Source: a virus. Taken from it: DNA of 42,615 bases. The translations under genes and the position numbers were made by a program. The stretch covers positions 1-42,615 of IMG/VR virus record IMGVR_UViG_3300017748_000021. One strand, written 5' to 3'. This document shows positions 2,877-29,555 of this stretch, piece after piece (position 1 is the stretch's first letter; each line of letters starts with the position of its first letter). The notes under the pieces were generated by a model that made no database searches, was not told the origin of the DNA, and worked only from the letters and a program-made list of their open reading frames with translations.

Positions 2877-3590
2877 ATGAGACATTTGTTAATCCTCTCT
2901 CACGGTGCTTCCGGAACATCGGCAGTGGTAGACCAGTTATTCAATAACAAAAACGTCTTTTTACAATACAACAAAGAACCACTAAACACAAAAGACCCCC
3001 CAAGGAGAAACACTCGCATACTGCACGGCATTCACTGGTATGACGAGCATATTACCGAACTGGTTAATCTTGCGGAGTCCAACGAGCAAAAGCTACTCAT
3101 CCATATAAAACCGATGCACCTCTCTCCGATTTCCGTTTCTATCGCCGAGGCCGTGCAAAAGCTGCACCATCAGTTCGATTTTATACTCATTCTGCGTAAA
3201 AACTACTTGGCCCGAAAATGCAGCGCCGCTTTTAAATTACTCCAGCGCAAGAACAATAGCCCGCAGGCTAAGGTGACGCTAAACATTAACGCAGCCGATT
3301 TTGCCGAAGACGACCGAACCCACCGGGAAATGCTGCGTCTCACGGAGCCCTGCAATCCGTTTTTCATTGATTACGAGCGCGACCTCCACCAAAACACACG
3401 AAAGACAATCGACTCGCTCTGCCACCATTTTGAGTTTTACCACCCGTATCAATACCGGCCGATGAAGCCCAATTACCACGCCAAGAAAAATCAGTGGTCA
3501 GCGATTAAGTTGCAAGATAAGATTGCAAACTTTGACGAAATCCGGGACAAACTTTCCGGCACGAAATACGAATGGATGCTGCACGAGTAA
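2877..3590 (+). CDS. Sulfotransferase-like protein
   Basis: The 237-residue protein opens with a strand and a P-loop-like turn, LILSHGASGTSAVVDQL, which matches the 5'-phosphosulfate loop of PAPS-dependent sulfotransferases except that the usual Arg is Ala. About 105 residues in, FILILRKNYLARKCSAAF matches the 3'-phosphate loop (hydrophobic strand, Arg, then Ser). By family knowledge it would transfer sulfate from PAPS to a sugar or other hydroxyl; the acceptor is unknown. It is the only plus-strand gene between the control region and the early operon, and it converges on the HNH-like gene with an 18-base gap. It stands alone like a moron. Two further sulfotransferase-like domains occur in this window. 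A divergent P-loop protein of another kind is the main alternative. Confidence 0.55.
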   Translation: MRHLLILSHGASGTSAVVDQLFNNKNVFLQYNKEPLNTKDPPRRNTRILHGIHWYDEHITELVNLAESNEQKLLIHIKPMHLSPISVSIAEAVQKLHHQFDFILILRKNYLARKCSAAFKLLQRKNNSPQAKVTLNINAADFAEDDRTHREMLRLTEPCNPFFIDYERDLHQNTRKTIDSLCHHFEFYHPYQYRPMKPNYHAKKNQWSAIKLQDKIANFDEIRDKLSGTKYEWMLHE

Positions 3591-3608
3591 CGAAAGTTTA
3601 CCGCTGAA

Positions 3609-4067
3609 CTATCTACCCAGACCCCGGCCTACCGCCTGTCGCCCTTTTGGAGTAGGGACTACTAATTTCAGATTCCCTTCTTGAAACCCTAAATTTAAGT
3701 TTATTCTTCTAATGTAGACCCTATGGGGCGATTGCTCTTGCTTTTGTAGGTAGTTTACCCTAAAACACCAGTCTTCAAATTCCGATAAAGTGAGGTTAAA
3801 ATCTTTACCCCGTCTTTTTGCTGCTTGCCGTAATCTCGAATACGCATTTGAGATGGGGTTATTTTTACGCCATAGCCGCATTTTGCAACCGCTACAGATT
3901 CCCCCTGTTTTACTACTGACGCCATAACTCCTCGGCGACGGTTGATTGCAAAACTTTACGGGGCAGAGATCCGCATGTTTGTTTTCGTCTAAAACCAGTT
4001 CCCAAAGGTTCTCGATCTTTACAATCTGATTTCCTATTTTTTCGGTTTTCCGGTTTGCAAAACCCAT
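3609..4067 (-). CDS. Zinc-finger, HNH-like endonuclease family protein (degenerate)
   Basis: The 152-residue protein has two cysteine pairs, CPVKFC and CSGCK, about 25 residues apart, that could form a zinc knuckle. A basic helix follows (SRLRQAAKRRGKDF), then FEDWCF and a C-terminal RVYIRRINLNLGFQEGNLKLV segment. The last part aligns by eye with the IDRIDN..GY..GN tail of phage HNH homing endonucleases, but the usual Asp/His residues are replaced. It may therefore be inactive, or a DNA-binding relative. The ATG at 4067 overlaps the upstream membrane-protein gene by 34 bases; a longer form from 4100 is possible. It is the last gene of the minus-strand cluster. Confidence 0.45.
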   Translation of the reverse strand: MGFANRKTEKIGNQIVKIENLWELVLDENKHADLCPVKFCNQPSPRSYGVSSKTGGICSGCKMRLWRKNNPISNAYSRLRQAAKRRGKDFNLTLSEFEDWCFRVNYLQKQEQSPHRVYIRRINLNLGFQEGNLKLVVPTPKGRQAVGRGLGR

Positions 4068-4225
4068 TTTGCAATATACCACGGCCAGAACAAACCGCAC
4101 TTAACGGCTACCTTATTTGGCGGGTGATCCCCAAAACCAACATAATACGTCACTCCCACAAAACAACCTGTCAGGTAGCCTATGACGGCGTATAGAGTTA
4201 CAATAGTCGCTAAAGTAGTCATCAT
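4034..4225 (-). CDS. Small membrane protein
   Basis: 63 residues. A hydrophobic segment at about residues 5-30 (LATIVTLYAVIGYLTG) is followed by a polar loop and an aromatic amphipathic stretch (GLFWPWYIAKW). One or two membrane segments are likely. The start codon is an ATGATG at 4220-4225 whose second half overlaps the TGA of the upstream gene, so translation is probably coupled. Function unknown. Such small phage membrane proteins are often involved in exclusion or lysis timing, but nothing here shows that. Confidence 0.55.
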   Translation of the reverse strand: MMTTLATIVTLYAVIGYLTGCFVGVTYYVGFGDHPPNKVAVKCGLFWPWYIAKWVLQTGKPKK

Positions 4226-5674: not shown

Positions 5675-7843
5675 TTACCGAGTTAATTTTTCCAAGCTCC
5701 AAACCCGTTTTCTGCCCGACATTTTTACGGACATAAACGGGCAACTTCCGTCTTTTTGTAATTTATCTAAAGCTCTCGCAAAGCTTGTAGGACTGTAGTT
5801 TTTGAGGACTCCGCGCAGACCCTCGTGAACCGTCATTTGGGCCAATAGGGCAGAAGCTGTTCCTTCCCATGTAGGTGAGTCATCCGGGTCTGTTGGATCA
5901 AACCGAGTCAACTCCCGCCAGATGTCTATAATTTCTTCTAGTCTGGCGTGGCTAGTCACCTCTTTGGCGACTTGTAACAGATCAGGGTGGTGATACGGGC
6001 GAACTCCAAATCTAACGCTATTATCCATGACTTCAGCCGGAGCCTCGTAGTGAAATAGTAGGTATCCCACAAAATAGGGGAGTTCCTGCTCCAGCAAAGT
6101 GTGCAAGTCTGAACTTGGCGGAAAAGCTATTTTTCGACGCGCCAGCTTGTAAAGGCTAACTTTGTCTCGAATAGTCATGTCCATGTTTGGTATAATGCTT
6201 AGCGAGTCCGGATCGTCGTTGCAAGTAATTGTAATTCGGCCATACCAAGGTATGACGTTTGCATCTTGGAACTTGGGGTGATACACCACCTCGGGCGTTG
6301 CAACGTGCTTTTTTAGTGTTTCCGAGAACAGCATGTGACGTTGCGAAGAACTCGCGCTCTGGTTGTCATCTACATACCAATGAAAACTCTGAGCAAGCTC
6401 TTTGTTGAAACTTCCCTGCTCCAGCAAAAACTTACCAGCGTCAGTATTAGAGCCAAACAGCATCCTTTTAATTTTTACCGCCATAAGAGACTTACCTAAG
6501 TCTTTCCCTCCCGACAAGATTTCTGCCTTCCCAGAGCACGGTTCGCCTTCGTGCAGAGACCTCAAGGTTCTTTGAATATCCGCAAGCCAATACTCCAGCG
6601 GACTACAGCCATCTTGTGGTTTGTCATCAAAATATCCTTCCAGATATTGACTTACCCAAGGAAAGTTAGTCCCGTCCGCACACTCTTCTTTGGCAGCGGG
6701 TGGCATAGGTTTCCTGTGGTTGATGTTTAAGTAGCGGTTCCCGTTATGGTCTACGAATCTATCGTTCGTATGCGGAAATGGACAGGCTGCGTAGACTCGG
6801 TGGTGACTCCGAATACCTTCCATAATCTGATCGACCTCGGTGCTAGTAGCTTTTTTCTTCAGCCGATGACTATAGCCTTGAACCTTGAGGGTCTGAGTCA
6901 GGTCGTCTTTTGTAGTAAAATCCCACCTACCACTAGAAGCTCGATCCCAGTATAGCTTTCCATCAAAGAACCTGTTTTCTACGGCGTCGGTCAGCTTCTT
7001 TTCTGAGAACTGGCGCATAAAATCAGCACCCAGAATATCTTCCCAGAACGTCATTCCTTGGTCTGCCCGTGTCGAGAACGAGTAAACCCCCCATTCTGCA
7101 CAGATAGCTGAGCAGTCCGGGTTGCCGTCATCTATCCAAAACAGAGGCACCCGAACATCTCTACCAAGAGTGACTCCGCTCAAGCGTCCGGGAAACTTCT
7201 CTTCGACCTTATCTTGAATTTTATCCCAAGGTATCTCGGTAAACTCAGTTTTGATTGTCTTGATGGCTCGGCACGCCTCAAATTGCAACTTAGTAAGCGT
7301 TTGAATGCTCAATTCGTTACCTTTACCCACGACAGTCCAATCTGTTCCAATCTCCCAAGTTATGACGGGGCTAAACGAAGCGTCGTCAAATCCCGGAGCG
7401 AGGCGTTTGGCTTTTACTAACTCAGCAAGCTTCTTTTGAAAGGCAGAGTTTACCTCGGGCTGATCGGCCCATACAAAGTTTTCAAACTTCCAAACTACTC
7501 TAGCTCCCCCACTGAACGTCTTACTAACTGCCGTAGGCTGCAAATCCTCTGGTATTTCTTTGTCGATACGGTCAAGGAGTTCCGATAGCTCGCCTTTGTA
7601 ATCAAAGTCGGCAACCCAAGCCCACTGCTTTAGCGGCGGATTGTTCTCTTTCTCAATTCGTAAACCCGGATTAAGTGCTTCAAAAGCATAGAAAAATATG
7701 TGTGACGTGTTCTCGTCTTTGCACCATTTTCGGTAGGCCGCTTTGTCACTCAACGCGGGTCTCTGAGCCACGTAGTCCCATGGGTTTCCTGCCAGCTTCT
7801 GAGCTTTGCTCGTGCTGTGATTAGGTATTGTGAACCAACTCAT
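5675..7843 (-). CDS. Primase/SF3-type helicase fusion
   Basis: 722 residues. The ATG at 7843 forms an ATGA overlap with the DNA polymerase stop, so I prefer it to a TTG at 7855. The N-terminal half looks like an archaeo-eukaryotic-type primase: WVADFDYKG (Asp79, Asp81), then SGGARVVWKFE and WEIGTDW in the order of its three motifs. The C-terminal half has a superfamily-3 style ATPase: Walker A SGGKDLGKS near residue 448, Walker B FHWYVDDNQ near 489, and a sensor-like ITITCNDDP. The protein would unwind the fork and prime synthesis for the polymerase encoded just upstream. The helicase half is clearer than the primase half. Confidence 0.7.
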   Translation of the reverse strand: MSWFTIPNHSTSKAQKLAGNPWDYVAQRPALSDKAAYRKWCKDENTSHIFFYAFEALNPGLRIEKENNPPLKQWAWVADFDYKGELSELLDRIDKEIPEDLQPTAVSKTFSGGARVVWKFENFVWADQPEVNSAFQKKLAELVKAKRLAPGFDDASFSPVITWEIGTDWTVVGKGNELSIQTLTKLQFEACRAIKTIKTEFTEIPWDKIQDKVEEKFPGRLSGVTLGRDVRVPLFWIDDGNPDCSAICAEWGVYSFSTRADQGMTFWEDILGADFMRQFSEKKLTDAVENRFFDGKLYWDRASSGRWDFTTKDDLTQTLKVQGYSHRLKKKATSTEVDQIMEGIRSHHRVYAACPFPHTNDRFVDHNGNRYLNINHRKPMPPAAKEECADGTNFPWVSQYLEGYFDDKPQDGCSPLEYWLADIQRTLRSLHEGEPCSGKAEILSGGKDLGKSLMAVKIKRMLFGSNTDAGKFLLEQGSFNKELAQSFHWYVDDNQSASSSQRHMLFSETLKKHVATPEVVYHPKFQDANVIPWYGRITITCNDDPDSLSIIPNMDMTIRDKVSLYKLARRKIAFPPSSDLHTLLEQELPYFVGYLLFHYEAPAEVMDNSVRFGVRPYHHPDLLQVAKEVTSHARLEEIIDIWRELTRFDPTDPDDSPTWEGTASALLAQMTVHEGLRGVLKNYSPTSFARALDKLQKDGSCPFMSVKMSGRKRVWSLEKLTR

Positions 7844-9624
7844 TTTGTGTAGCAATCCATGATTTCTGCTTCTGCTGATACGGGGAGCCCCTCAGCCCAT
7901 GGAGGCACAACGGCCATTAAATGCTCTATCTCTCGGGCAGCCTCTACTGCATCCTCTTCCGGCACCAAGCAGACAACCTCATCGTGAACTCGCATGATTA
8001 CCGGAATGCCTGCTTCCTCTACTCTGAGGACGCCCTCTACAAACAGGTCTCTTGCAGTAGCTTGAACTAGGTTCTCAGTCAGCTTACCACCCCAAGTTTT
8101 GGTGTGGATGAAGTTTCTACCTTTGGGGACAGCTACCGTCAAAACTTGAGAGTATTCGTCACCACGTCGCTTGACACCCCTATAGCGTAGCTTCCTACCA
8201 CTAGGTAGTTCTATATCGTAGGTGGCATCATTGTTGTCCCAAATATCGCGCTCTAGCTGCTTCCAGAGTTTGGGAACTGGAGTCGTTTTCCGATACTCTC
8301 GGACGATTCGTTTGGCTTCTGTTTCGCCGATCTCCAGATTATACATTGTTTTAGCCATTTGCCGGAACTTGTTGGCCCCACAACCGAAGCCGAGCGACAA
8401 TACCCGAGCTTTGGCCAGTTGTCGCATATCAGGATCAACATTTTTCAACTTGTCGCTGTTTTTGTAGCCCATTGTCGCACGAGCGTGTGCCTCATATATG
8501 TCCACACCCTGCCTAACCAGTTCCAGTAAGTCTGAGTCACCAGCAAGCCACGCTGTAACTCTTGCTTCAATTTGTCCGTAGTCTGCAACAACCAGTTTAA
8601 ATCCGGGAGGTGCTGTAATCATTTCCCTGATGCACACCCCAAACATTTCTGCCCGAGGTAGGTTTTGCATGTTCACTCCACCAGACCCTGAGTCGCGCAA
8701 GGTGTGAGCCCCACCGTAAAGTTGGTTATACGCCATCCAGCCGGGGTCGTCATATTTTATGCGAGCCTCCATAGCCGACAACTTCTTTGCAATCATGTTG
8801 CAACGACGCCAAACCCGCATGGCTTTGACCCACGAGTATTTCTGCCCATACTTGTCTTCCCATTCAGCACACTCCACACTATCCATAGCTAGACTTTTCG
8901 GAGCTTCTATACCAACTTCCCTACACTGCTTTGCCAAGGCTTTTGGGCTCAGGGGGGTTTTATCCTTGTCCCATTTCCATGGGATTTCGTTCTCGGACTC
9001 CCAGATTTGTTCTTTCAGCTTTGCAATCCCCTCGCGTATCTTATCGCCGTCTACTGGAACACCTCGGTTTCCCATTGTCACGGTGTGATCGGAATACTTT
9101 CGCTCTACTTCGGGCCAATACTTCCCGCACTTTACAAAAATATCTCGACAAAGGCGGCTATCTTCTGTGGCATATTCCAATACTTCCTTTTGGAACTCAG
9201 GGGTCATCTCCTCCCACTTCTTACCCTGCATTTTGTCGCGCGTGCTTTTGTCGGGTATTTCGTCTAGCAAAAACTTTGATGCGTTATCCAGAGCCCTCGG
9301 GAAACCTAAAAAGGCAGTCAAGTCTGCCGAGCAATGCCACTCTTCTGGAAATACGTTAGGTAGCTTGCCGTTTTGAACGAGAGCTTCATAAACAGTTTTG
9401 TCAAAACTCTTATTGTGGCTAACCCAAACGTCTCCGGGTTTGCAAATGGAGGCATAATCAAACTCTTCGGGTCGCCCTGCCCACTTGTTGTCTTGGTCGT
9501 CTACAATGGAGATCATGTAGGCGTCAAACTTGGGATGCCTACAATAGTTGTAACTCCCCTGCACTTTGATTGAAACTTCCTTGTCGTAGTATGTTTCAAA
9601 ATCTACTCCGATGATTCTTTTCAT
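7840..9624 (-). CDS. Family A DNA polymerase with 3'-5' exonuclease
   Basis: The 594-residue replicative polymerase lacks a 5'-3' exonuclease domain, as in T7-like enzymes. Exonuclease motifs: DFETYYD (Asp8, Glu10), SHNKSFDK and YATEDSRLC. Polymerase motif A is VVADYGQIEAR, motif B is the KARVLSLGFGCGANKF helix and motif C is MRVHDEVV. Motif A has Gly-Gln-Ile-Glu-Ala-Arg where bacterial Pol I has Ser-Gln-Ile-Glu-Leu-Arg, as in many phage enzymes. It is the first gene after a strong terminator, so it may have its own promoter or depend on read-through from the upstream operon. It overlaps the primase/helicase start by four bases. Confidence 0.9.
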   Translation of the reverse strand: MKRIIGVDFETYYDKEVSIKVQGSYNYCRHPKFDAYMISIVDDQDNKWAGRPEEFDYASICKPGDVWVSHNKSFDKTVYEALVQNGKLPNVFPEEWHCSADLTAFLGFPRALDNASKFLLDEIPDKSTRDKMQGKKWEEMTPEFQKEVLEYATEDSRLCRDIFVKCGKYWPEVERKYSDHTVTMGNRGVPVDGDKIREGIAKLKEQIWESENEIPWKWDKDKTPLSPKALAKQCREVGIEAPKSLAMDSVECAEWEDKYGQKYSWVKAMRVWRRCNMIAKKLSAMEARIKYDDPGWMAYNQLYGGAHTLRDSGSGGVNMQNLPRAEMFGVCIREMITAPPGFKLVVADYGQIEARVTAWLAGDSDLLELVRQGVDIYEAHARATMGYKNSDKLKNVDPDMRQLAKARVLSLGFGCGANKFRQMAKTMYNLEIGETEAKRIVREYRKTTPVPKLWKQLERDIWDNNDATYDIELPSGRKLRYRGVKRRGDEYSQVLTVAVPKGRNFIHTKTWGGKLTENLVQATARDLFVEGVLRVEEAGIPVIMRVHDEVVCLVPEEDAVEAAREIEHLMAVVPPWAEGLPVSAEAEIMDCYTK

Positions 9625-11701: not shown

Positions 11702-12994
11702 TCAGACAGATTTATTATGCAGGGTTTGAAGATTAGCAAGCTTTTTATTTACAGATTTGCGAATTTCATCTTCTACCGTTCCCTCGCCAAACAAAATACG
11801 CTGTATTGACGGGGTTTTTCCTCCGGCCCGATCTACCCGGCCCGTGACTTGAATTATGTCTTTAGCATTCCAACTAGGACTTATTAGAGCGACCCTTGGA
11901 AAATTTCCGTTTAGGTCGTGCAAACTTACCCCTACTCCGCCTGCTGCGACGTTACAGACGACAAACCTAAGTTCATCAGCTTGAAATCTTCTAATAATCT
12001 CTTGTCGTTCCGCCCCAGTTTGCTTGCCCCATATTAGGCCGACTTCTTCCCCGATTAAATTTTGACATGATTCAATACTGGCATCAAAATTTAGGAAGAT
12101 GGCCACGCTCAAGTCGTTTTCATAGTAATCTTTCGCCATCTCAGCTAAAACAGGGATTTTTAAGAGTTCTATTTCTTGCCTAGCTCTTAATTGCGCCGTA
12201 AGAGCAGCGGCTGCGGGGTTATCGTTTTCTCGCGATTCTTCTAAAGCAATGAGTTCCTCCTCCATAGCTTCATAGATTCTCTGTATCTTCCCCTCATCTC
12301 CAAAGTCTACTGGTTCCGTGGTAATTTTAGTTTCTTGGAAAAAGTCCCCCATTTCGTGCCGTGTAACTTTGTGACCCCGATCAGAGTATATTTCTTGGTT
12401 CAACTTAGTGAGAACTTCATCTCGTTTACTTGTTGCAAACTTTAGGTTCCTCCACGGGTCTAGGTAGCACCCGTGCATCTTTGCCCACGGGATAAATTTT
12501 CTGGGGTCATCAAAAAGATTCAGCAAATACCCAATATTTTTAAGTTCAGTTGGGTCTTCTGCCGCCGTCGCAGATAGCATCAGGTTGCAAACACCCTTAC
12601 CTGACAAAAGCAGTTTACCATTTTGAGTTACACGACCCTTGCACTTGTGAACTTCATCCCAAATTAAAAACTGAACTCGGTCATCAAAAACGAACTTTTT
12701 AACACCTCGGTCGGTTTCCCACTCACCCCACTCCGTTCTACCAGTCCGAAGTTTTTCATAATTCAACACATCTAGGTATGCCACGCCCTGCTCTTCGAAG
12801 GTGGCTTTCCACGACGGGATTACACTCTTTGGGCATACAACCAGAGGCTTATTGTTGCAAAGTCGACTAATCTCAACAGCTTTAAGGGTTTTTCCTGTCC
12901 CCACGTCACTAGAATCCAATGCAGCACCGTGCTTTTCTAGTGCCGAGATCAGAACATCTAAAGATTCTTTTTGGGGAGGAAAAAGAATCTTCAT
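11702..12994 (-). CDS. SNF2/DEAD-type superfamily 2 helicase
   Basis: 430 residues with the complete SF2 motif set: SSDVGTGKTLKA (Walker A near residue 32), LVVCPKSVIPSW (Ia), LIWDEVHKCKG (DEVH at about 113-116) and LMLSATAAED (III). The second RecA-like domain follows with VAIFLNFD and VVCNVAAGGVGVSLHD (V), ending in IIQVTGRVDRAG (VI). Phage members remodel DNA or help recombination-dependent replication. It starts with an ATGA overlap on the glycosyltransferase gene upstream and is followed one base later by the Cas4-like nuclease. Confidence 0.85.
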   Translation of the reverse strand: MKILFPPQKESLDVLISALEKHGAALDSSDVGTGKTLKAVEISRLCNNKPLVVCPKSVIPSWKATFEEQGVAYLDVLNYEKLRTGRTEWGEWETDRGVKKFVFDDRVQFLIWDEVHKCKGRVTQNGKLLLSGKGVCNLMLSATAAEDPTELKNIGYLLNLFDDPRKFIPWAKMHGCYLDPWRNLKFATSKRDEVLTKLNQEIYSDRGHKVTRHEMGDFFQETKITTEPVDFGDEGKIQRIYEAMEEELIALEESRENDNPAAAALTAQLRARQEIELLKIPVLAEMAKDYYENDLSVAIFLNFDASIESCQNLIGEEVGLIWGKQTGAERQEIIRRFQADELRFVVCNVAAGGVGVSLHDLNGNFPRVALISPSWNAKDIIQVTGRVDRAGGKTPSIQRILFGEGTVEDEIRKSVNKKLANLQTLHNKSV

Positions 12995-14103
12995 CCTTTT
13001 GAGCGGTCGCTCTCCTCAACTTTTAAAAGTTGAACCGCTTTTTCCACAACTTGGGTAGGGGGGATGCTGTTTAAAACTTCACAATAACCTGTTTTTTCAC
13101 AAACCTCATCTTCCGGAAATACTTGGTTCCCTTTTTGATGGTGGTAGCACGGAGCTATTTCACACTTGTCTAAATTTCCTTCTATTGGGTGATTTTTAGG
13201 TAGGTTTTGCGTCCTAAGTTTGGCGGGCACTGAACCATGTAGAGATATAGAGGGTATTTCAAGTGCCCCAGCTACGTGAAGCAATGAAGAGTCTACCCCT
13301 ATAAATAAGTCCGCAGTAGCTAGGACGGCCGCCGATTGTCTGAACGAAAGCGGAATAGAAGTCATATTGTAAATGTCGACTACGGCGTTTTCCTCGGAAT
13401 CAAAGCCAGAGATTTCTCCGGGAGCACCCAGTAAAAATATTTCACAATTTTTTGTCCAAAGTCCCCTAATAACTTCAATCCATTTTTCAGTTTCGTAGGT
13501 TCTCGTAGGTGTGGAGGCTCGACATTGAATTGCAATGCGCGGTATTTCCCCACGCTTCTTAGGCAGTTGCAACTCAACCTCAGCTTTCTCTGATTCAGAA
13601 ACGCTATATTCTAAGCGGCCTCCGTCAGTAAGGTCTATCCCCGCGCACTCTGCGAACACTTCAACCCCCGGAGTATCTTTTGCAACCTCGCGGTTTTCTA
13701 AGGTATCTTCCATCCAGATAATTTGGTCAAATTCAAGTAGCTCGTTTTCTTGCATCGGATAAGGTCGCGTTGCAACGACCCCTCTAAGGATAGTCCCGTA
13801 AGTCTCTGCACACGCTACCGTTACCGTTGATAACGGAAACTGCTGTCTCAATGCCCTAATAAGGGGCGTCAACATCAGGAGGTCGCCATACGCGCCCGGA
13901 CGGACAATTACGATTGAGTCCCCATCTTTACAGTTAATCGGGCTAAACCCTTTAATTGATTTGGGGTCTGCTATCGTTTCTACGACGCAGTCTGGGGATT
14001 GCGCCATGCACGCAGCCGCTGCTGAGTTTTCTAATAGATAAGTTCCGGGATCTTTCCAAGAATGAAGGTAATTCCACGAGTGAGTTGTTGTTATTTTTTG
14101 CAT
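12991..14103 (-). CDS. Glycosyltransferase family 9-like (heptosyltransferase-type)
   Basis: 370 residues with a GT-B fold signature. After about 65 residues comes SIVIVRPGAYGDLLMLTPLIRAL, the hallmark N-terminal motif of ADP-heptose:LPS heptosyltransferase relatives. The C-terminal domain has CRASTPTRTYE in the donor-binding position and FIGVDSSLLHVAGALEIP, the GT9 nucleotide-sugar signature. A Cys-rich tail follows (CEIAPCYHH, CEKTGYC). It should transfer a sugar onto a lipopolysaccharide-like or other glycan acceptor. Its presence in a replication operon, TGATG-coupled to another glycosyltransferase-like gene and ATGA-coupled to a helicase, is unusual. Early expression suggests alteration of the infected cell's surface rather than of virions. 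Confidence 0.8.
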   Translation of the reverse strand: MQKITTTHSWNYLHSWKDPGTYLLENSAAAACMAQSPDCVVETIADPKSIKGFSPINCKDGDSIVIVRPGAYGDLLMLTPLIRALRQQFPLSTVTVACAETYGTILRGVVATRPYPMQENELLEFDQIIWMEDTLENREVAKDTPGVEVFAECAGIDLTDGGRLEYSVSESEKAEVELQLPKKRGEIPRIAIQCRASTPTRTYETEKWIEVIRGLWTKNCEIFLLGAPGEISGFDSEENAVVDIYNMTSIPLSFRQSAAVLATADLFIGVDSSLLHVAGALEIPSISLHGSVPAKLRTQNLPKNHPIEGNLDKCEIAPCYHHQKGNQVFPEDEVCEKTGYCEVLNSIPPTQVVEKAVQLLKVEESDRSKG

Positions 14104-14774
14104 CAGTTGATTTCTTCCCAGTGTAGTTTAGTTACAGGTATAGACACCTCCGGCCTTGGGTAGATATGCCAGAATCTTTTTTGGTCAGGGTTTGGTTGAA
14201 GGTTTTCCATTAGACAGAAAATACAACTGTTTATGGCGTGCAGTTCTTCAGCCTCTTCTAACACTCCAACCAAGTTTAGCAAGTTTTTGTTTAGTAGGTC
14301 TCGCGGGTGGGTTGCATTTCGGATACGGGGAAACCTTTTTCGCGATATTGTAAAATGCCGAGTCGGGTCGTCGTGACAGATAATTTTTGGTCGAACTTTT
14401 AATTCTTTGCTTCGATCTCGTTTGTAGTAAAAGCTGTCCCAGCGGTGACGGTAGTCTATGTCAGCCCACCTATAAAACTCCCTGTCAAATTCTTCTAATT
14501 TGAAGTCTGCACCATGACTAAACATTGTTAAGTCGACAATTCTTTCACTAGGCCACTTAGGCCGAATTTGCCTAAAAATAACCGGATATGGGTCGTGCCT
14601 CGGAACCTCTATTAGTTCGACCCGCGAACCCAAGTCGCGATACATCCATGATACTGTTACTAAGTTGTCATCTCGGCACGGGAGAGTTATATTTGCATCT
14701 GGATTTCGAGATAGCCATTCCCGCACAAGACCGTTGCAAATAAAGAAATCCCCCAAGCCCAGATGCAGAAGCAT
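14103..14774 (-). CDS. Glycosyltransferase-like protein, partner of the GT9 gene
   Basis: 223 residues from the ATG at 14774, which forms TGATG with the upstream stop. The N-terminus LMLLHLGLGDFFICNGLVREWL resembles the Gly-rich acceptor loop of GT-B enzymes (GLGD, then a small-residue helix). Near the end, EELHAINSCIFCLMENL matches the donor-site pattern (His, then Ser-Ser-hydrophobic, then Ile-Glu-Asn-Leu) of GT9 and fucosyltransferase-like enzymes. The middle is short, so it is a compact or divergent member. It is also TGATG-coupled to the GT9 gene downstream, so the two probably act on one glycan. Confidence 0.55.
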   Translation of the reverse strand: MLLHLGLGDFFICNGLVREWLSRNPDANITLPCRDDNLVTVSWMYRDLGSRVELIEVPRHDPYPVIFRQIRPKWPSERIVDLTMFSHGADFKLEEFDREFYRWADIDYRHRWDSFYYKRDRSKELKVRPKIICHDDPTRHFTISRKRFPRIRNATHPRDLLNKNLLNLVGVLEEAEELHAINSCIFCLMENLQPNPDQKRFWHIYPRPEVSIPVTKLHWEEIN

Positions 14775-15160
14775 CAGCCAGTTTTCTTTTCTTTTTGAGA
14801 GTTTTTCGACTCTGTTTCCGCCTGACATTCTTGAACCTTTTCTTGGAGTTTGCTTATCGACTCTTTTTGTTTATCGACTAAATTTTGCAAGGAGTCCAAG
14901 GCGGACGCCACTGCTTCTGGAAGTCCTAAAATGTTTTCCACTGCCCCAAGTTTTCTCTCCAGCAAGATTTCTACGATGGCTTGGCAACTAAGTTGACTTG
15001 ACGGATTCGGATCATTTTCCGCAGCTAATTTTCCATCTAGCGTCCAGAATTGTTCAATAACTCTATTAGGGTCTCTTTCGACCCCACTCCCCCGACGCTC
15101 TAACTCCGTCCTAATTAACTCAACTGCGTGAGCTTTTGGATTTTTATTTAGTTCACTCAT
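14774..15160 (-). CDS. Hypothetical protein with C-terminal coiled coil
   Basis: 128 residues, not recognised. The first 60 residues are helical with ELIRTELERRG. The last 45 (from about SLQNLVDKQKESISKL) have heptad spacing and end in a Lys/Glu tail, indicating a coiled coil. It precedes the glycosyltransferase pair by a TGATG overlap and follows the dATP/dGTP diphosphohydrolase-like gene by six bases. No function can be assigned. Confidence 0.5.
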   Translation of the reverse strand: MSELNKNPKAHAVELIRTELERRGSGVERDPNRVIEQFWTLDGKLAAENDPNPSSQLSCQAIVEILLERKLGAVENILGLPEAVASALDSLQNLVDKQKESISKLQEKVQECQAETESKNSQKEKKTG

Positions 15161-19200: not shown

Positions 19201-19986
19201 ATGCTGTTTGTATTTCCCGTTTCTGCCTCAGATCACGAGTTGGTTGAACCTCTAACTAAAACCATCAAGAAACTTGGCCCCATAGGGAATCATTCCGCGA
19301 TAATTAGCTCAACCCCAACAGCCGTTAAAGCAGCACAACACTTGCAAAAAGAATTGCAATCCTCTTTTAAAACGGTCGACCTTTTTGTGTTGGACACTGA
19401 ACCCGCCGGAGGTTGGCCAAAAGCTTGCAACATTCATTTTAGGGATACCGCCTACCACATCTATGAGAGATTTGGACAGATTATTCAGCCGTGGTATTGG
19501 TTTGAACTAGACAATACTCCTTTAGTTAGGGGCTGGGCAGACGAGCTACAGAAGGAGTTTAACGTCTCTGGAAAGCCGTTTATGGGGGTTGTTCACCCCA
19601 CCCACTTTGTTTCGGGATACGATGAGGACGGAAAACCTGATACGTTTGAGCAGCGCGGCTCCCACATGGTAGGAACTGGTATTTACCCAAGCAATCTCTG
19701 GAAACGATCTACTATGATTAAGTTCCTCGTCGAGCCTTTTGATGTGGAGATGCAATACGAAATCGTAGCCGACTGCCACAACACACCTTTGATACAACAT
19801 AACTGGTCTACAGGCAGTTATAAGCGTGACGCTAAATCCAATAAGGTTGTTTGCAAATCCTTGCACCCCGGTAGGTCGCCCTTGAAGCACGACAATCCAG
19901 TTCGAGACAATGCGGTCGTTCTGCATGGTTGCAAAGACGGAAGTTTGGCCGATGTTGTATGCCGAAAGCGTAATTCAACAAAGTAG
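19201..19986 (+). CDS. Putative glycosyltransferase-like protein
   Basis: 261 residues; the ATG at 19201 is preferred over a GTG at 19186. The features look like a GT-A type enzyme: an N-terminal strand LFVFPVSASDHEL, then GGWPKACNIHF, then QPWYWFELDNTPL with an acidic ELD in the place of a DxD metal motif. SHMVGTGIYP follows, then a C-terminal QYEIVADCHNTPLIQHNW that could give the catalytic and metal-binding His. It lies between terminase and portal with an 8-base gap to the portal gene, so it is expressed with virion genes. Function is inferred from shape and context only. Confidence 0.4.
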   Translation: MLFVFPVSASDHELVEPLTKTIKKLGPIGNHSAIISSTPTAVKAAQHLQKELQSSFKTVDLFVLDTEPAGGWPKACNIHFRDTAYHIYERFGQIIQPWYWFELDNTPLVRGWADELQKEFNVSGKPFMGVVHPTHFVSGYDEDGKPDTFEQRGSHMVGTGIYPSNLWKRSTMIKFLVEPFDVEMQYEIVADCHNTPLIQHNWSTGSYKRDAKSNKVVCKSLHPGRSPLKHDNPVRDNAVVLHGCKDGSLADVVCRKRNSTK

Positions 19987-19993: not shown

Positions 19994-22267
19994 ATGGCCA
20001 AGCAAGGCATTGAAGAACTCGCCGACATGGAGTTGGCAACACTAAACCCGGAAACCGGCGAGGCACCCGAAGAAAGACTTCGCGATTTAGCTTCTGCTCA
20101 TAACTTATATACAAGCCTTCGCGACGATGATCACCAAAGCGCGATGAATCGAGCTTCGATTCGGGCAATGTTCGACGGGGAGCCACCTTTTGACGAGCAA
20201 GACCTTGTAGCCGCTAATCAGGGCGACCGTTGCAACCTTAACTTTGACGAAGCTGGAGCCATTCTCGATAAGGCGCAGGCCGGGTATATAGACTTGTTAA
20301 ATTCTGTCCCAACTTACATCTCAGTAAAGACTGACTATGGTGAAGAAATTGAGAGAGAAGAGTGGAACTCTATAATTGCAGACGAGTTTACTCGCATGGT
20401 AAAATCATGGCCAGAGTATTCCCACAGGTTTTTATTACTTTCGTCATATTGGTTACAAGACGGAGTTTCTTTTGCTTGTTTTGACCACGCCTATGATTGG
20501 AAATTCAATGTTGCAAAGTTTGGGGACTTTCTGATCCCTCGCCGAACTTTTGCTGCTGAGGAGAATATTCAAGTAGCTTGCTGGATTCGTGAATACGAAG
20601 CCCACCATCTTTATTCTTTTATTCGAAATGAAAAAACGGCAACTCGTGCAGGATGGAATGTAAAAGAAGTCCGCAAAGCTATTATTGATTGTAGCACTGC
20701 CAAAGAACTCGATAACACTCGCGGAGATCAGTGGGAAACTTGGCAAGAAGTTGCCAAAAATAATGATCTCTATGCTTCGACAATGGGAGCACCCATTAAA
20801 GTAGTGCATAGTTTTGTTCGAGAATTTGATGGCACTGTCAGTCACTACATCTTTCGCGAAAACGGGGAAGGTTCCGATTTTCTTTTTAAGAAGAAGTCTC
20901 GTTTTGAGAACATACACCAGTGCGCTGTTGGCTTTACTTATGGCCAAGGAACAAACGGATATTACCACGGTATCCGGGGTCTTGGTTGGAGAATCTTTTC
21001 ACTTATACAGGAACTGAATGTTGCGCGGTGCCAGTATTTGGATGGAGCAAAACTTGCTTCTTCAATGTTGATCCAGCCCCGGACTCCCCAAGACTTAGAG
21101 AAGTTGAGTTTAACTTACTTTGGGCCGTATGCCGTTTTGGCTCCGGGATTTGATGCTGTTCCATCTTCTATTCCTAACTTTGGTCAGAATATTCAGCCAG
21201 CAATTAACGAGTTAACTCGACTGGTTAATGATAAAGTCGGACAGTTTTCTAGTCAGGCTATGTTCTCCGACAGCCGAGATCGAACTCGTTTTGAAGTTGA
21301 AGCCTCTATGCAACAGGCTTCCGAATTGAGCATTACCAGCTTAAACTTGTTCTACGAGCCTATGGATAGGCTGTTTCGGGAAATGTTCCGCCGTGTTCAA
21401 CGGAAGAATTACCCAAGTAATGCCAAAGGAGGAGAAGAAGTTGCAAAGTTTCGCGCTCGCCTAGAAGCACGCGGTGTTCCGCTTGAGGCTCTTTATGAAG
21501 TCGACTTAGATTCAGTAAAAGTCACCCGTGCCGTTGGAGGCGGTTCCGCAGCTTCCCGACAAATGGCACTACGCGAGTTGACCGACCTTTCCCCCGCCTT
21601 TGATGTTTTAGGCAGACAACGACTTTTACGGGATCGAATAGCCTCCAGAATTGGTTATGATAGTGTAGATAGATACTTACCCCCACCAGAAGTTGAGCGT
21701 ATTGACATTAATGAGCAGTTGGCTATTTTAGAAAATAACGATTTAGTCGAAGGCCACGAAGTCCCAATTCGGCCGAATGATCCTCACATGATTCATTTAC
21801 CAGTTCACATTCGGAAGTTAAACGAGTTTGTGCAGGACGTTGAAGAGCGCGGAGCACCTTTGGAAAACGTGGCAGAGCCTATGACGGCTGTTCATGCCCA
21901 TGCGGTTTCTCACTTAGAATCAGTTCAAGCAGACCCCCTTATTCGCGAAGACGTTGCGTTTTATCGAGAGGCTTTACAACAAATTGGAGAAATTATTGTC
22001 AGAGCGATGCTCAGAATGGAAAAAATTCGCCGAGATGCAGCCGCACAGCAGCAGGCTGGGCCTGACGGAGCCGCTCCACAACAACAAGGTGAAGACGTTG
22101 AGTTTGCGGCTGGACTTCGCAGAAAACTTGAAGAGCACCAAGTTAAGTTGCAAATGATGCAACGTGAAACCGAAGCCAAGATTGCAATGCGTATTCAAGA
22201 GTCGCAGGCGAAGTCAGCTATCGCAGATAGTGAGGCTGCTGCCCGAATCGGAAGACCTAAGTTTTAA
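19994..22267 (+). CDS. Portal protein
   Basis: 757 residues from the ATG at 19994. The position directly downstream of terminase and upstream of scaffold and capsid, and the length, are those of podovirus head-tail connector proteins. Visible segments include HQSAMNRASIRAMFDGEPPF near the N-terminus, a long mixed alpha/beta wing, and LIQELNVARCQYLDGAKLASSML in the stem-helix position. The C-terminal 100 residues are helical and very Gln/Ala-rich (QQQAGPDGAAPQQQGED), like the barrel of large portals. It would form the dodecameric vertex through which DNA enters and leaves. Confidence 0.8.
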   Translation: MAKQGIEELADMELATLNPETGEAPEERLRDLASAHNLYTSLRDDDHQSAMNRASIRAMFDGEPPFDEQDLVAANQGDRCNLNFDEAGAILDKAQAGYIDLLNSVPTYISVKTDYGEEIEREEWNSIIADEFTRMVKSWPEYSHRFLLLSSYWLQDGVSFACFDHAYDWKFNVAKFGDFLIPRRTFAAEENIQVACWIREYEAHHLYSFIRNEKTATRAGWNVKEVRKAIIDCSTAKELDNTRGDQWETWQEVAKNNDLYASTMGAPIKVVHSFVREFDGTVSHYIFRENGEGSDFLFKKKSRFENIHQCAVGFTYGQGTNGYYHGIRGLGWRIFSLIQELNVARCQYLDGAKLASSMLIQPRTPQDLEKLSLTYFGPYAVLAPGFDAVPSSIPNFGQNIQPAINELTRLVNDKVGQFSSQAMFSDSRDRTRFEVEASMQQASELSITSLNLFYEPMDRLFREMFRRVQRKNYPSNAKGGEEVAKFRARLEARGVPLEALYEVDLDSVKVTRAVGGGSAASRQMALRELTDLSPAFDVLGRQRLLRDRIASRIGYDSVDRYLPPPEVERIDINEQLAILENNDLVEGHEVPIRPNDPHMIHLPVHIRKLNEFVQDVEERGAPLENVAEPMTAVHAHAVSHLESVQADPLIREDVAFYREALQQIGEIIVRAMLRMEKIRRDAAAQQQAGPDGAAPQQQGEDVEFAAGLRRKLEEHQVKLQMMQRETEAKIAMRIQESQAKSAIADSEAAARIGRPKF

Positions 22268-24191: not shown

Positions 24192-25355
24192 ATGGCTTAC
24201 GACATTAACGACCTACTACAACAGGAAAGTGGACGTATTGGGCCCGACATCTTTGATAAGAGTCTCAATACCTCCCCTTGGCTCAAGCTCGTGCAACGCG
24301 ACACTTGGCCAGACGAAATGGGTCAGAGCATCCAAGTTCTGACTTACGAGAGATCCCTACCCGGAACCACCCCTTCGTGGTCTACTGTAGACTACACGAC
24401 CGGAACTGGAGCGGGCTCTTGCACCCCAACCGCTGAGGAAGTGTCTTTTGCGAGCACTCTCCGCACCTATAACCTTCAGCAGACTGCGCTTGAGTCGCCT
24501 CCGATCTGTGTGAATGACCTTCGCTTCACTACCATGCGTCGTGAGCAGCTTCGTTCATGCTTTGACGTGCTTCAACAGAATGCCCGCTACTTGTGGCAGG
24601 AGCGTTATCGCGACGAGTATATTCGTCTCGCTGAGCATAAGGTTATCGTCAAGACTGGTTTCCCAGAGAGCGATTCTGCTTTCCCCGCCCAAATTCCTAC
24701 CTCCAAGCTTACTCAGGGAACCCTCGACAGGTTCTATCTGAAGTTGCTTCGCGACGGTGCTGGCAATAACGCTGTCGACCGTGTTAACGGCCGTCCGCAG
24801 TTTATCGCTATTATGGGCCCCGAAACTCAGGAGAATATCCTCAAAGAAATTGGAGATATTCGCGATGACTTCCGTTACTCTGATCGAGTAGGGGAGCTTC
24901 TCGGGCCATTGGGTGTAACTCGTCCTTACAAGGGCTTTTTCCACCTGATCGACGACTTCCCACCCCGTTATAACTTTGACGGAACAAATTGGGTAAGAGT
25001 TGAGCCTTACATCGCATCTTCTGCCTCTAAGGGCCAGAAGTATGACATCAACCCAGCTTGGGAAACCGCCGCTTACGAAGATACCATTCTCTTCCACGAG
25101 GATGTTTATACATCTATGGTTCCTAAGCCAATTACTTCTCCCGGTGGAAACACTACGTTCGAAGCCGTGAAGTATATGGGTGATTGGAAGTGGTTAAACG
25201 AGTTCGACAAGACCGAGAACCCTGACAAGACTATCGGATACTTCCGAGGAATCTTCTCTGACGGTTCTAAGCCTATTCATCCAGAATTTGGCTACGTTCT
25301 TCGCCACCTCCGTTGTGCGCCTGAGCTTAATTTGGGTGCGTGCGCTGCCACGTAA
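24192..25355 (+). CDS. Major capsid protein
   Basis: 387 residues, the usual size for an HK97-fold coat without a large added domain. It is identified by its place after scaffold, its own strong promoter with terminators before and after, and the codon usage. That usage is visibly more selective than in neighbouring genes (many CGC/CGT, CTC/CTT, AAG and GAG codons), as expected for the most expressed protein. Sequence hints include an N-terminal DIFDKSLNTSPWL arm, a long helix REQLRSCFDVLQQNARYLWQ in the spine-helix position and FIAIMGPETQENILKEIG. I cannot confirm the fold from motif alone. Confidence 0.8.
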   Translation: MAYDINDLLQQESGRIGPDIFDKSLNTSPWLKLVQRDTWPDEMGQSIQVLTYERSLPGTTPSWSTVDYTTGTGAGSCTPTAEEVSFASTLRTYNLQQTALESPPICVNDLRFTTMRREQLRSCFDVLQQNARYLWQERYRDEYIRLAEHKVIVKTGFPESDSAFPAQIPTSKLTQGTLDRFYLKLLRDGAGNNAVDRVNGRPQFIAIMGPETQENILKEIGDIRDDFRYSDRVGELLGPLGVTRPYKGFFHLIDDFPPRYNFDGTNWVRVEPYIASSASKGQKYDINPAWETAAYEDTILFHEDVYTSMVPKPITSPGGNTTFEAVKYMGDWKWLNEFDKTENPDKTIGYFRGIFSDGSKPIHPEFGYVLRHLRCAPELNLGACAAT

Positions 25356-25743: not shown

Positions 25744-27990
25744 ATGGCGCGAGTTCTTTATTTACAAGCTGACTCAGGCAAAAACTCGGGTCAGTTCCTA
25801 ATCGACGCAAAAACTCGCGAGAGACCTGTAATTTCTGACGGAACCAGCCTTACGGTTCGATTAGGGTCTTTTCATTTTGATACCCCCACGTCTCTTGCAA
25901 ACCTTACTCAGCTTAACTTTGAGTTTCGAAAGACTTCTTCGGATTCAGAAACTCCGTTCCTCTCCCGAAATGTAACTCTACCGATTGCAAACGAGGAAAT
26001 TTTACTTTCTGCTTGGAACTCTAAATCTTCGTGGAATGCTGAGATTGATTTTACCTCAGAAGAATTAAACTACGACATACCCGACGAGTCTGACCACGCA
26101 GACCTCTTCTTGATTATTACTGCGACTTTCAGCAGTGGGTCGCAAAACACTTTAGGTGCGGGAACTATTAGGATCGCCGCCACTAACGACTCAGGGGCGT
26201 CCGAGAGTTCGTTTATGTTAAAGTCAGTTTATGACGCCAACAACGATGGGATTGTTGACCAAGCAGCCGTAGCCGATTCAGTAGACTGGTCGAACATCTC
26301 AAGTAAGCCCACCTCGTTTACTCCAAGCACTCACAGCCACACAAAGTCCGAAATTTCTAACCTTGCATCCTTTTCCGGTGCTGGGGAAGCTAATCTTGTC
26401 CCCGACCCCGTTTCAGAAACAGGTAAGTTTTTGCAAGATGACGGAACTTGGGTAGACCTCACAGTTAGTTGGTCAGACATTACAGGAGTTCCTTCCGACT
26501 TTATTCCCGGAGACCACAGCCACACAAAGTCGGAAATCACCGACCTTGCAGCTTTTTCTGGTGCCGGAGAAGCTAATCTTGTCCCCGACCCTTCAACCGA
26601 AATTGGAAAGTTTCTCCGAGACGACGGTTCTTGGGCAACTGAATCTGATTTCTCCGGTAACGGGGCTTCTGGGCTTGTCCCAAACCCGGGTTCTGAAACT
26701 GGAAAGTTTCTCCGAGACGATGGAACTTGGGCAACTGCGTCAGGCAGTGTCGCTTGGGCCGACATTACCGGCAAGCCTTCTTCGTTTACTCCCAGTAGCC
26801 ACACTCATTTGCGAGCAGAGATCACTGATCTTTACAACTTTTCTGGTGCAGGTAGCGTCGGCCTTGTTCCCGATCCGACCGTAGCTTCCGGAAAGTTTTT
26901 GCAAGACGACGGTTCTTGGAGTTCTCCAAACATTCCGTCTATTCCTAATTTCAGTGGCGCTGGCTATGAGGGCCTCGTTCCTGACCCTGTCACCGAAACG
27001 GGGGGCTTCTTAAAAGACGACGGTTCTTGGGAGATACCCTCCGTTAGCAGCAGTGGAGCCGTTACCGCGAGCGCCGCAACGGAGACAAAGCAATTTGATA
27101 ACTCCACAGGGCTAAATCTTGGAGCTACCGTAGACAAAAGCATTGGGGAACTCCGAGTTTTAAACCGCGACCCTGCGGTTACTTCTGAAGAAGAACCTCA
27201 TGCTGCACAGATTTTCGAATTAATCAACGCTGTTGTAAATTCTAGGGATGTTACCGACATTACCTCAAACGAGTTTACTTTATCTGCGGGACAGGAATTT
27301 AATACTGGACAATGCGTTGTTATCCGTTCTACCGGAGACATTCCTACGGGCGTAGTTCAGAACCAACTTTACTGGATTTCTAGTGGTGCTTCTAGCTTCA
27401 AACTCCACAACAACTACGCCGACGCACTCAGCGACGACTCTCCCGTTACCGTAACAGACTCTGGAACCGGAACAGTTACGTTTTATCAAGCTAATTATCC
27501 TTACGAGGTCATTCCAAATGATTATGACCCCACCACAAACGCTAGAATTTGGCAAAAACGAGAACTCGACCCTTTGGTAACTCTTTCTTACGAAGGCGAA
27601 GCTCCGGATGTCGAGCTAGTTTCAGCCGGTTATTACGACCTCGGAATCGTTCCCTACCCGATTGTCGTAGAGAACGTCCTAATACACTCACTTAACGACA
27701 ACGGCGGAAACGAACCCTACCTAGATTTAGAGGTAAACGGTTCTTCGGGGTTGAAAGACGGTGCATCTATATTAGGTAATACCGGAGGCACTAGCAGCAG
27801 CGGGTCAAGCCCTTGGTATGCCGTGTATTCAGTAAAGAACGCATTTAACAGTGAACTCCGATTGTTAAGCGTCGGAGATACTTTAAGCCTCCATTGCGAA
27901 GACGACGGGTCTGCGTCGGGCTCAGCTTCGTCGGGCTGTGGGGTTACTATTACTGGGCGGCCGCTTAGAAAAGTTCATACTAACTTTTAA
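25744..27990 (+). CDS. Tail fibre / receptor-binding protein with HxH and GKFL-DDGSW repeats
   Basis: 748 residues. Residues 1-170 look like a BppU-type baseplate- or tail-binding beta domain. From about 190 to 430 comes a shaft of repeats of two alternating kinds. One is W-x-DI-x-KP-x-SF-x-PSSHTH followed by AEI-x-DL (HSH, HSH, HTH: the HxH metal-binding triplets of trimeric fibres). The other is FSGAG-x5-LVPDP-x-ETGKFLRDDGTW. A C-terminal beta-rich region with Gly/Ser runs probably forms the receptor-binding tip. It should be trimeric and determine host attachment. Its stop overlaps the start of the glycosyltransferase-sulfotransferase fusion by one base, so the two are translated together. 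Confidence 0.75.
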   Translation: MARVLYLQADSGKNSGQFLIDAKTRERPVISDGTSLTVRLGSFHFDTPTSLANLTQLNFEFRKTSSDSETPFLSRNVTLPIANEEILLSAWNSKSSWNAEIDFTSEELNYDIPDESDHADLFLIITATFSSGSQNTLGAGTIRIAATNDSGASESSFMLKSVYDANNDGIVDQAAVADSVDWSNISSKPTSFTPSTHSHTKSEISNLASFSGAGEANLVPDPVSETGKFLQDDGTWVDLTVSWSDITGVPSDFIPGDHSHTKSEITDLAAFSGAGEANLVPDPSTEIGKFLRDDGSWATESDFSGNGASGLVPNPGSETGKFLRDDGTWATASGSVAWADITGKPSSFTPSSHTHLRAEITDLYNFSGAGSVGLVPDPTVASGKFLQDDGSWSSPNIPSIPNFSGAGYEGLVPDPVTETGGFLKDDGSWEIPSVSSSGAVTASAATETKQFDNSTGLNLGATVDKSIGELRVLNRDPAVTSEEEPHAAQIFELINAVVNSRDVTDITSNEFTLSAGQEFNTGQCVVIRSTGDIPTGVVQNQLYWISSGASSFKLHNNYADALSDDSPVTVTDSGTGTVTFYQANYPYEVIPNDYDPTTNARIWQKRELDPLVTLSYEGEAPDVELVSAGYYDLGIVPYPIVVENVLIHSLNDNGGNEPYLDLEVNGSSGLKDGASILGNTGGTSSSGSSPWYAVYSVKNAFNSELRLLSVGDTLSLHCEDDGSASGSASSGCGVTITGRPLRKVHTNF
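26290..27035 (+). repeat. Tandem fibre-shaft repeats (protein and DNA level)
   Basis: The shaft coding region repeats GGAAAGTTTCTCCGAGACGA-like and TCYGGTGCYGGAGAAGCTAA-like segments several times, in step with the protein repeats of about 25-40 residues. Near-identical neighbouring copies suggest recent duplication or recombination. Confidence 0.65.
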
Positions 27991-29555
27991 TGAGCCGACG
28001 CAGAAATTGCTCTGAGTCACGCAACTCAAAAGCTAATCGTAGCCCCGTTCTCGCTACGGCACCCGACCCTTTAAAGCGAGAAGATATTAAGTTTTCTGGT
28101 TGTGGTTGGGGGCAAGCTTTGAATAAAGAACCTCCGTTTGTAGTGGTGATTCCGTTTATGAACCGGGATTTGCAAGCTACCCACCGAGTCTCTGCCTTAA
28201 AAACAATAGTTAAAAAGTTTCAAGAAGCTCATGTAGAGACAATTTTAGTTACCCAAGGAGAGAGTCCAAAAGATTTCAACACTGGGGGTAGGCTTTATGT
28301 TTGCGAACAATACGATTTAGGTGATTCCGACTTTTACAAATCTACTTTAATTAATCGAGGCATTGAATTTGCGCTAGAACATTTTCCAAATTGGAAGTGG
28401 CTCTGGCAGTCCGATGCAGATATTCTGTTTCCTGTGTCCGAGGCAATAAAAAGTGCCGAAGCTTGCCCCCAAGACACACACGTCATAGTCCCGTGGAAAA
28501 ATTGGTTGCGATTAAATCAAGCTCAGACGGCACTCGTTTCCGATTTTCCCCAAAACTCGCGAGTATTTGAAGACTCGTCCCCAAGAAATATCAATGTCGG
28601 GGCCGGTGCTGGGGGTATAATGTTGCAACGCAGTATCCTAGAAGAAGGCTTTAGGTGGGATGACACCTTCGTAAATTGGGGGTGGGAAGACTCAGACGCC
28701 GCTAAGCGGGCTATATCTTGGGGTTCTAAGGGTTGCAAAGTTCATCGAGGCAAAACTTCGGGCCTTCATTTGTGGCACGAAAACGACCGCGTAGTTCAAG
28801 TGTCTAATGGAGAACATTATTTCCAAGGTGAAATACCTAAAAATAATATGTCCGGTGTTTTGCTAGAAGCTAAAACTAAGTTTCTAGTAGTAGCGACGGG
28901 TCGGAGCGGTGGTCACTTGCTTGGACGTTCTCTGAGTTTACACCCTCAAGTTCATTGCGATAATAAAGAGCCTTTCATTCACTCTAAACCCCAACCCCCC
29001 ATTCAAGAGCAAAATGTTCTTATGCGAAACTGGGCATTTCGCGGGCCACTTTTTAGTGAAAAGCCTGTAGTGGGGATGAGATTGCAATACGTGATAAATA
29101 ATCCTAGTTTTAAATTTTCCTTCAAAAGTTTTTTGCAGTGGGCTGATAAGCTAGAGTTTAATTTTATTCATTTAATTAGGAGAAACTCTGTAGAGCAGGC
29201 AATTAGTCATGCACTGGCTACGCGGAGCGGGCGGTGGATTCACAACAAATATGATGATACCAAAATTTACTTACCCCCGAATGAATTTAAAGGTTTTTAT
29301 CGTTGGGTTGAGTCCAAAAAATCGGAATTTACCCCCTTGCTGAACAACTACGGAGCACACGTAGTTTATTACGAAGATTTATGTGAAAACTGGGACTCAG
29401 AAATGGGCAAAATTTTTAAGTCTTTAGGCGTTAAGCCTCTTGAGGTAGAGCAAGCTGTCCCAAAACAAACTAAAAAACCTCATCGAGAATATATCTCTAA
29501 TTGGTCTGAAATAGAGGAAATAGCAAAATCTTTTAAATCGGAAACGCTCAGTTAG
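27990..29555 (+). CDS. Fusion of GT7-like glycosyltransferase and sulfotransferase
   Basis: 521 residues in two domains. Residues 45-270 are a GT-A glycosyltransferase of the GT7/galactosyltransferase C-terminal type: PFVVVIPFMNRD start, WLWQSDADILFP with the DxD metal motif, NVGAGAGGIMLQ, and the signature VNWGWEDSDAAKRA. Residues 292-520 are a sulfotransferase: KFLVVATGRSGGHLLGRSL (5'-phosphosulfate loop), then FIHLIRRNSVEQAISHA (3'-phosphate loop with Arg and Ser). One polypeptide could therefore add a sugar and sulfate a glycan. It is translationally coupled (TAATG) to the tail-fibre gene and precedes the holin. That points to late expression and possible modification of virion or released-cell glycans. 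Confidence 0.8.
   Translation: MSRRRNCSESRNSKANRSPVLATAPDPLKREDIKFSGCGWGQALNKEPPFVVVIPFMNRDLQATHRVSALKTIVKKFQEAHVETILVTQGESPKDFNTGGRLYVCEQYDLGDSDFYKSTLINRGIEFALEHFPNWKWLWQSDADILFPVSEAIKSAEACPQDTHVIVPWKNWLRLNQAQTALVSDFPQNSRVFEDSSPRNINVGAGAGGIMLQRSILEEGFRWDDTFVNWGWEDSDAAKRAISWGSKGCKVHRGKTSGLHLWHENDRVVQVSNGEHYFQGEIPKNNMSGVLLEAKTKFLVVATGRSGGHLLGRSLSLHPQVHCDNKEPFIHSKPQPPIQEQNVLMRNWAFRGPLFSEKPVVGMRLQYVINNPSFKFSFKSFLQWADKLEFNFIHLIRRNSVEQAISHALATRSGRWIHNKYDDTKIYLPPNEFKGFYRWVESKKSEFTPLLNNYGAHVVYYEDLCENWDSEMGKIFKSLGVKPLEVEQAVPKQTKKPHREYISNWSEIEEIAKSFKSETLS

Follow-up and report, generated by a model that had tools for sequence, protein, structure and literature searches.

A probable accessory glycan-decoration gene set, with an apparently swappable slot after the primase gene, in a virus of an uncultivated group

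The DNA analysed here, a 42,615-base linear IMG/VR virus record that is open at both ends (hereafter the window), carries sulfotransferase-like and glycosyltransferase (GT) genes that probably form an accessory glycan-decoration set. In this set, a fusion of a GT and a sulfotransferase (ST) domain, the stand-alone protein ST2 and possibly the diverged protein ST1 would sulfate glycans via PAPS, other GTs would add sugars, and the enzymes encoded at a place after the primase gene would be swappable.

Results

Setting of the genes

Because both ends of the window are open and larger contigs with terminase relatives measure 66-78 kb, the window probably covers some 60% of a complete genome. Replication genes occupy its left side on the minus strand, and head and tail genes occupy its right side on the plus strand; we call these the early and late clusters, labels that were taken from gene position alone. 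A tyrosine recombinase gene adjoins the terminase-like gene. The terminase-like and probable capsid genes had no match among 50,697 phage records, yet relatives of the terminase were present in 166 viral contigs, so the virus appears, by these genes, to belong to an uncultivated group. A verrucomicrobial host, which had been proposed in the original prediction, was unsupported: the patterns used detected no terminase relative in about 85,000 prokaryote genomes, and DNA polymerase matches, at about 27% identity, were spread across unrelated hosts. Coordinates are collected in Table 1.

Table 1. Genes and domains discussed in the text, with two features of related records
Feature	Position	Strand	Basis or remark
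ST1, diverged sulfotransferase-like protein	2877..3590	+	Shares four motifs, in the same order, with the fusion ST domain; gene converges with the early cluster
ST2, stand-alone sulfotransferase-like protein, 199 aa	4491..5090	-	PAPS-binding motifs and bacterial relatives; early cluster
Primase-like (DUF5906) gene	5675..7855	-	PF19263 9e-8; homologues serve as synteny anchor for the variable slot
GT9-type (heptosyltransferase-like) glycosyltransferase	12991..14103	-	Glyco_transf_9 PF01075 6e-17, 62.1 bits versus a cut-off of 22
GT-like protein (HLGLGDFFICNGLVR)	14103..14828	-	Homologue within the cyanophage S-SRM01 sugar cluster
Terminase-like gene	17344-19158		No PHROG match
Predicted GT-A fold glycosyltransferase	19201..19986	+	Between terminase and portal; AlphaFold pLDDT 88.6, pTM 0.88
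Portal-like gene	19910-22267	+	Right-hand cluster; no PHROG match
Probable capsid gene	24192-25355	+	Right-hand cluster; no PHROG match
Tail-fibre-like gene	25744..27990	+	PHROG minor tail/tail fibre matches, 4e-17 and below; overlaps the fusion directly downstream
GT7-like (galactosyltransferase-type) domain of the fusion	27990..28865	+	PHROG 1721 galactosyl transferase, 1e-9
Stf0/Sulfotransfer_3-like sulfotransferase domain of the fusion	28866..29555	+	PF13469 2.4e-5; PF09037 8e-4
APS kinase of two related records	L145 6507-7085 (G034); L146 9219-9797 (G035)		PF01583 8e-46
FkbM methyltransferase of the closest relative	L144 1051-1974 (G001)		PF05050 4e-7

Several further features of the left side were observed. 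An NlpC/P60 domain gene with a lipoprotein-like start (596-1123; PF00877 4e-8) may encode a cell-wall hydrolase. The non-coding stretch at 2280-2870, upstream of ST1, contains repeated CCTAATTGG-like elements and an AT-rich tract and could be an origin or control region.

A GT7-like domain and a sulfotransferase domain are joined in one protein

The ORF at 27990-29555 encodes 521 aa, with a GT7-like domain at the N terminus and a sulfotransferase domain at the C terminus, and the identification of both in one protein is strong. The N-terminal domain contains a DxD-like motif, SDADILFP (28410-28433), and WGWEDSD (28677-28697); its match to Glyco_transf_7C lay exactly over WGWEDSD and scored 0.049 (13.7 bits), below the 23-bit cut-off. 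The two motifs presumably correspond to those of GT7 galactosyltransferases and bacterial chondroitin-type polymerases, from which the domain differs in its weak Pfam score and in the sulfotransferase attached to it.

In the C-terminal domain, GRSGG (28899-28913), HLIRRNS (29169-29189), YYEDL (29367-29381) and ISNWSEI (29493-29513) were found, including a 5'-PSB loop (GRSGGHLL) and a 3'-PB Arg...Ser motif (LIRRNSVEQAIS). The Sulfotransfer_3 match, at 25.2 bits, was slightly below the 27-bit cut-off, and hhalign aligned the domain (93%, E 3e-7) with a locally built profile that combines seven bacterial sulfotransferases with one Stf0-like phage protein. The Stf0 and Sulfotransfer_3 enzymes include the Sinorhizobium LPS sulfotransferase LpsS and the mycobacterial trehalose 2-sulfotransferase Stf0. 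The fusion domain resembles them by its PF13469 and PF09037 matches and a weak match to a trehalose 2-sulfotransferase model; unlike them, it is joined to a GT7-like domain, is phage-encoded and scores below the Pfam cut-offs.

The start of the fusion overlaps the stop of the preceding tail-fibre-like gene (TAATG). The G+C content of its sulfotransferase half, 0.399, was the lowest among the genes measured (0.475 for the window), as expected for a recent arrival. Directly after the fusion lies a gene for an 80-aa protein (29669-29911) that has a hydrophobic segment and is holin-like by eye.

Two stand-alone sulfotransferase-like proteins differ in how far they keep the PAPS-binding motifs

ST2 carries a 5'-PSB loop, GQKRTGTN (YGQKRTGTN), and a 3'-PB Arg...Ser motif, CMRNPAAWLVS, both with standard residues, and its gene has a 4-base ATGA-type overlap with each of its neighbours. 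Through a weak plasmid match (E 0.3), a bacterial family was identified that aligns with ST2 at both PAPS-binding motifs and some members of which match Pfam sulfotransferases weakly (best 0.024). Genes of this family adjoin an APS kinase in Aureimonas sp. AU20 and A. psammosilenae and, by reading of the ORFs, lie near glycosyltransferase-like ORFs in Sphingomonas, Pacificimonas and Erythrobacter (Sphingomonadales). In the local hhalign comparison, which supported the fusion strongly, ST2 did no more than rank first among the remaining 36 window proteins. AlphaFold prediction of ST2 with 12 bacterial relatives gave no usable model (pLDDT 44), and Foldseek matches to it are not meaningful. A scan with the pattern KRTGTN returned a single match, which was unrelated. 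On its motifs and relatives, we grade the identification of ST2 as a putative sulfotransferase as moderate.

ST1 has four motifs (SHGASGTS, ILRKNYLARKCS, DYERD and IANFDEI) whose order and similar spacing are common to the fusion domain and to P0011, a protein of Virus Rctr41k with an Stf0 match at the cut-off. The four-motif chain, a pattern written after inspection, occurred in 3 of 4610 ORFs (ST1, the fusion and P0011) and in none of the reversed or shuffled sets. Profile comparison of ST1 by hhalign was not significant, with 34 of 250 background ORFs scoring equally high, and searches of Pfam, NCBIfam, PDB, phage and plasmid sequences gave no match and those of PHROG no functional one. In its PSB loop, HGASGTS, Ala replaces the usual Arg/Lys, so that the key basic residue is absent; in the PB motif, the Arg-to-Ser distance exceeds the usual one by a residue, and Lys occupies the standard Arg position. 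ST1 is likely to be related to sulfotransferases, with an activity that may be altered, and its identification is graded weak. An Endonuclease VII-like gene (3609-4100; PHROG 3e-6) also lies in the region after the primase gene, and nuclease-like genes, recognised by eye, follow the primase in relatives too (L045 and L145).

Three glycosyltransferase genes lie outside the fusion

The identification of the GT9 protein is strong, and its gene is kept at the same place in the closest relative (54% identity). The adjoining 14103-14828 protein is called GT-like by context, because its homologue, a hypothetical protein, sits inside a cyanophage S-SRM01 cluster with an NDP-sugar synthase, a fucosyltransferase and a GT2. 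The ST2, GT9 and 14103 genes all overlap neighbours on the minus strand.

The predicted structure of the 19201-19986 protein (an alternative GTG start is possible at 19186) matched, in Foldseek, a xylosyltransferase, the collagen galactosyltransferase COLGALT1, the blood-group transferases GTA/GTB, glycogenin and viral glycosyltransferases. A putative metal-binding acidic motif, WFELDNTP, was present in most of 20 homologues and diverged in a few. By this model the protein would have a GT-A fold, an identification that we grade as strong.

The original prediction had described a glycan-modification set of three sulfotransferase-like and four glycosyltransferase-like domains spread over early, late and moron positions. 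All seven modules proved to be real ORFs at about the positions given, and a spread over the early and late clusters was confirmed, with ST2, GT9 and 14103 early and the GT-A gene and the fusion late; the strength of identification turned out to be uneven, ST1 being recognised by motifs only. Family HMM searches, which it had recommended, placed the GT9 protein over the cut-off and the C-terminal domain of the fusion just under it, and gave no family match for ST1, ST2 or the 14103 and 19201 proteins. Sequence searches of the PDB yielded no informative match. Its concern that the two stand-alone P-loop proteins might be unrelated kinases was not borne out, as neither matched a kinase family.

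The sulfotransferase genes are accessory and the GT-A gene belongs to the lineage

Conservation was examined in 50 related virus records, mostly fragments with several of full-length size, by a search that was a loose first look in which single absences are weak evidence. ST1, ST2, the fusion and PF13469 were each found in none of these records, most of which are fragments, so the three sulfotransferases are accessory genes for which a conserved function cannot be argued. Absence of the set from related phages is what the original prediction had named as evidence against it, and for the sulfotransferases this absence was observed. Conserved-peptide patterns, which demand near-exact peptides, likewise detected no direct relatives of ST1, ST2 or the fusion in viral contigs. 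The GT9 gene occurred in one of the 50 records and the GT-A gene in 30, the latter just upstream of the portal gene whether the terminase and portal genes run collinearly or are inverted. The GT-A gene is therefore a lineage gene beside the portal. On these counts we reject the inheritance of all seven genes as one conserved module.

The place after the primase gene looks like a swappable slot

Sub-threshold PF00685 matches were detected in two related records (G034 and G035), within an ORF of 497 aa. Its N-terminal half reads as GT-A-like (FFDADLVFL) and its C-terminal half contains IHYGKSGGVY and MFYRDPREIICS, which makes it a candidate GT-ST fusion, different from that of the window. Pfam gave no match to this ORF and hhalign no support. 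A paired sulfotransferase-motif pattern, written after inspection, matched only the window fusion, ST2 and this ORF among 1629 related-virus ORFs; control counts were 0 in the reversed set and 2, 0, 0, 0 and 0 in the shuffled sets.

About 0.5 kb from the relatives' candidate fusion lies a gene for APS kinase, the enzyme that makes PAPS, the activated sulfate donor. This gene was found in 2 of the 50 records, exactly those with the candidate fusion. The two records are near-identical (their candidate fusions share 496 of 497 residues), so the pairing represents one lineage and one event only. The candidate fusion and the kinase gene follow shortly behind the primase gene, at the place held by ST2 and ST1 in the window, and in the closest relative the same place is held by the FkbM methyltransferase gene. 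In four other long relatives, inspected by eye, no such gene was recognised after the primase. The place thus looks like a swappable glycan-decoration slot that in one lineage comes with its own sulfate-donor supply. FkbM genes also occur in G008 and G017, at other places. Pfam scans detected no APS kinase in the window proteins that they covered, so PAPS would be supplied either by the host or through the part of the genome that the window lacks.

Discussion

Glycan decoration by exchangeable enzymes is suggested by the candidate GT-ST fusion beside an APS kinase, by the APS kinase neighbours of the bacterial ST2 family and by the methyltransferase that fills the slot in the closest relative. 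In the mechanism that we propose, the GT7-like domain of the window fusion would first transfer a sugar, and the sulfotransferase domain would then use PAPS to sulfate that sugar or a neighbouring residue. ST2 and possibly ST1 would act as additional PAPS-dependent sulfotransferases, while the GT9, 14103 and GT-A proteins would add sugars. The slot after the primase would exchange enzymes between lineages, with ST2/ST1 in the window, the FkbM methyltransferase in the closest relative, and a GT-ST fusion with APS kinase elsewhere. The GT-A gene by the portal and the fibre-coupled fusion are both late, which hints at glycans of the virion or of the exit stage; their products would most likely modify the virion or a glycan that it encounters. 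The ST2, GT9 and 14103 proteins, being encoded early, would most likely act on the host surface. A two-stage model, with an early change of the host and a late change of the virion, fits the gene positions and is offered as a working hypothesis. More tentatively, and as a possibility rather than a probability, the genes may belong to a phage-encoded glycan sulfation system, in which bifunctional enzymes, encoded both at the slot and among the late genes and accompanied in one lineage by an APS kinase, would add a sugar, sulfate it and so alter the surface charge of virion or host.

An unlikely alternative would be several GTs with one sulfating enzyme, the fusion being the sole working sulfotransferase and ST1 and ST2 being diverged P-loop proteins with another role. 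Neither of the two has a family match, ST1 departs from both PAPS-binding motifs, and ST2 gave no usable structural model. Against this, both PAPS-binding motifs of ST2 have the standard residues, ST2 belongs with a bacterial family found beside APS kinase or glycosyltransferases, and the four motifs of ST1 are collinear with those of the fusion. We consider it improbable that the enzymes act on phage DNA or small molecules rather than on surface glycans. The GT9 and 14103 genes do sit among replication genes, and a DNA-protecting role has been proposed for phage glycosyltransferases (PMC10202952). However, Pfam scans of the main window ORFs detected no hydroxymethylase, thymidylate-synthase-like or other base-modification gene, and the GT-A gene and the fusion lie among head and tail genes. 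We also know of no sulfotransferase in DNA hypermodification.

Still less probable is that the genes are relics or cargo from hosts that drift without a selected function: intact ORFs that tightly overlap their neighbours, and the occurrence in this virus group of another candidate GT-ST fusion, unrelated and accompanied by an APS kinase, speak against it, although the absence of the sulfotransferase genes from the 50 relatives examined and the low G+C content of the fusion sulfotransferase domain would be compatible with such an origin. An accessory set that would decorate glycans is our preferred reading.

Marine and glacier phages have been reported to encode sulfotransferases (PMC10580990, PMC8290583), the function of which has been described as unclear (PMC10580990). 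The genes reported are of the PF13469 type, as here. Those reports concern single genes, whereas the contig here bears up to three sulfotransferase domains, one of them fused to a GT, and a relative has an APS kinase gene next to its candidate fusion. In the literature searched, which left most subscription journals outside its scope, we found no paper on phage GT-ST fusions or on phage sulfation with APS kinase. The fibre-coupled fusion, and the relative's candidate fusion by its APS kinase, make the function of phage sulfotransferases directly testable, by asking whether glycans are sulfated on virions or infected cells. Viral cysC, the same kind of gene as the relative's APS kinase, has been read as assimilatory sulfate reduction (PMC10134843). 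The relative's gene lies near a candidate sulfotransferase and more likely supplies PAPS for sulfation; if this is true, sulfation rather than assimilation would be the role of viral cysC in some phages.

Phage glycosyltransferases have been proposed to glycosylate virions, to prevent superinfection and to protect DNA, and the phages concerned resemble the window virus in having several GT genes, some of them by structural genes. Unlike those genes, the GT-A gene here is kept beside the portal across an uncultivated lineage, and no cultured relative was matched by the terminase-like or probable capsid gene. The content of the terminase-portal interval (17344-22267 in the window) varies among loci L003-L086: it holds the GT-A gene, nothing, an ORF pair of about 1.9 kb that reads as GT9-like plus diverged GT-A-like (with family support of no more than E 0.15, in one case), or collagen-like/fibre-like genes, as at L038 and L059.
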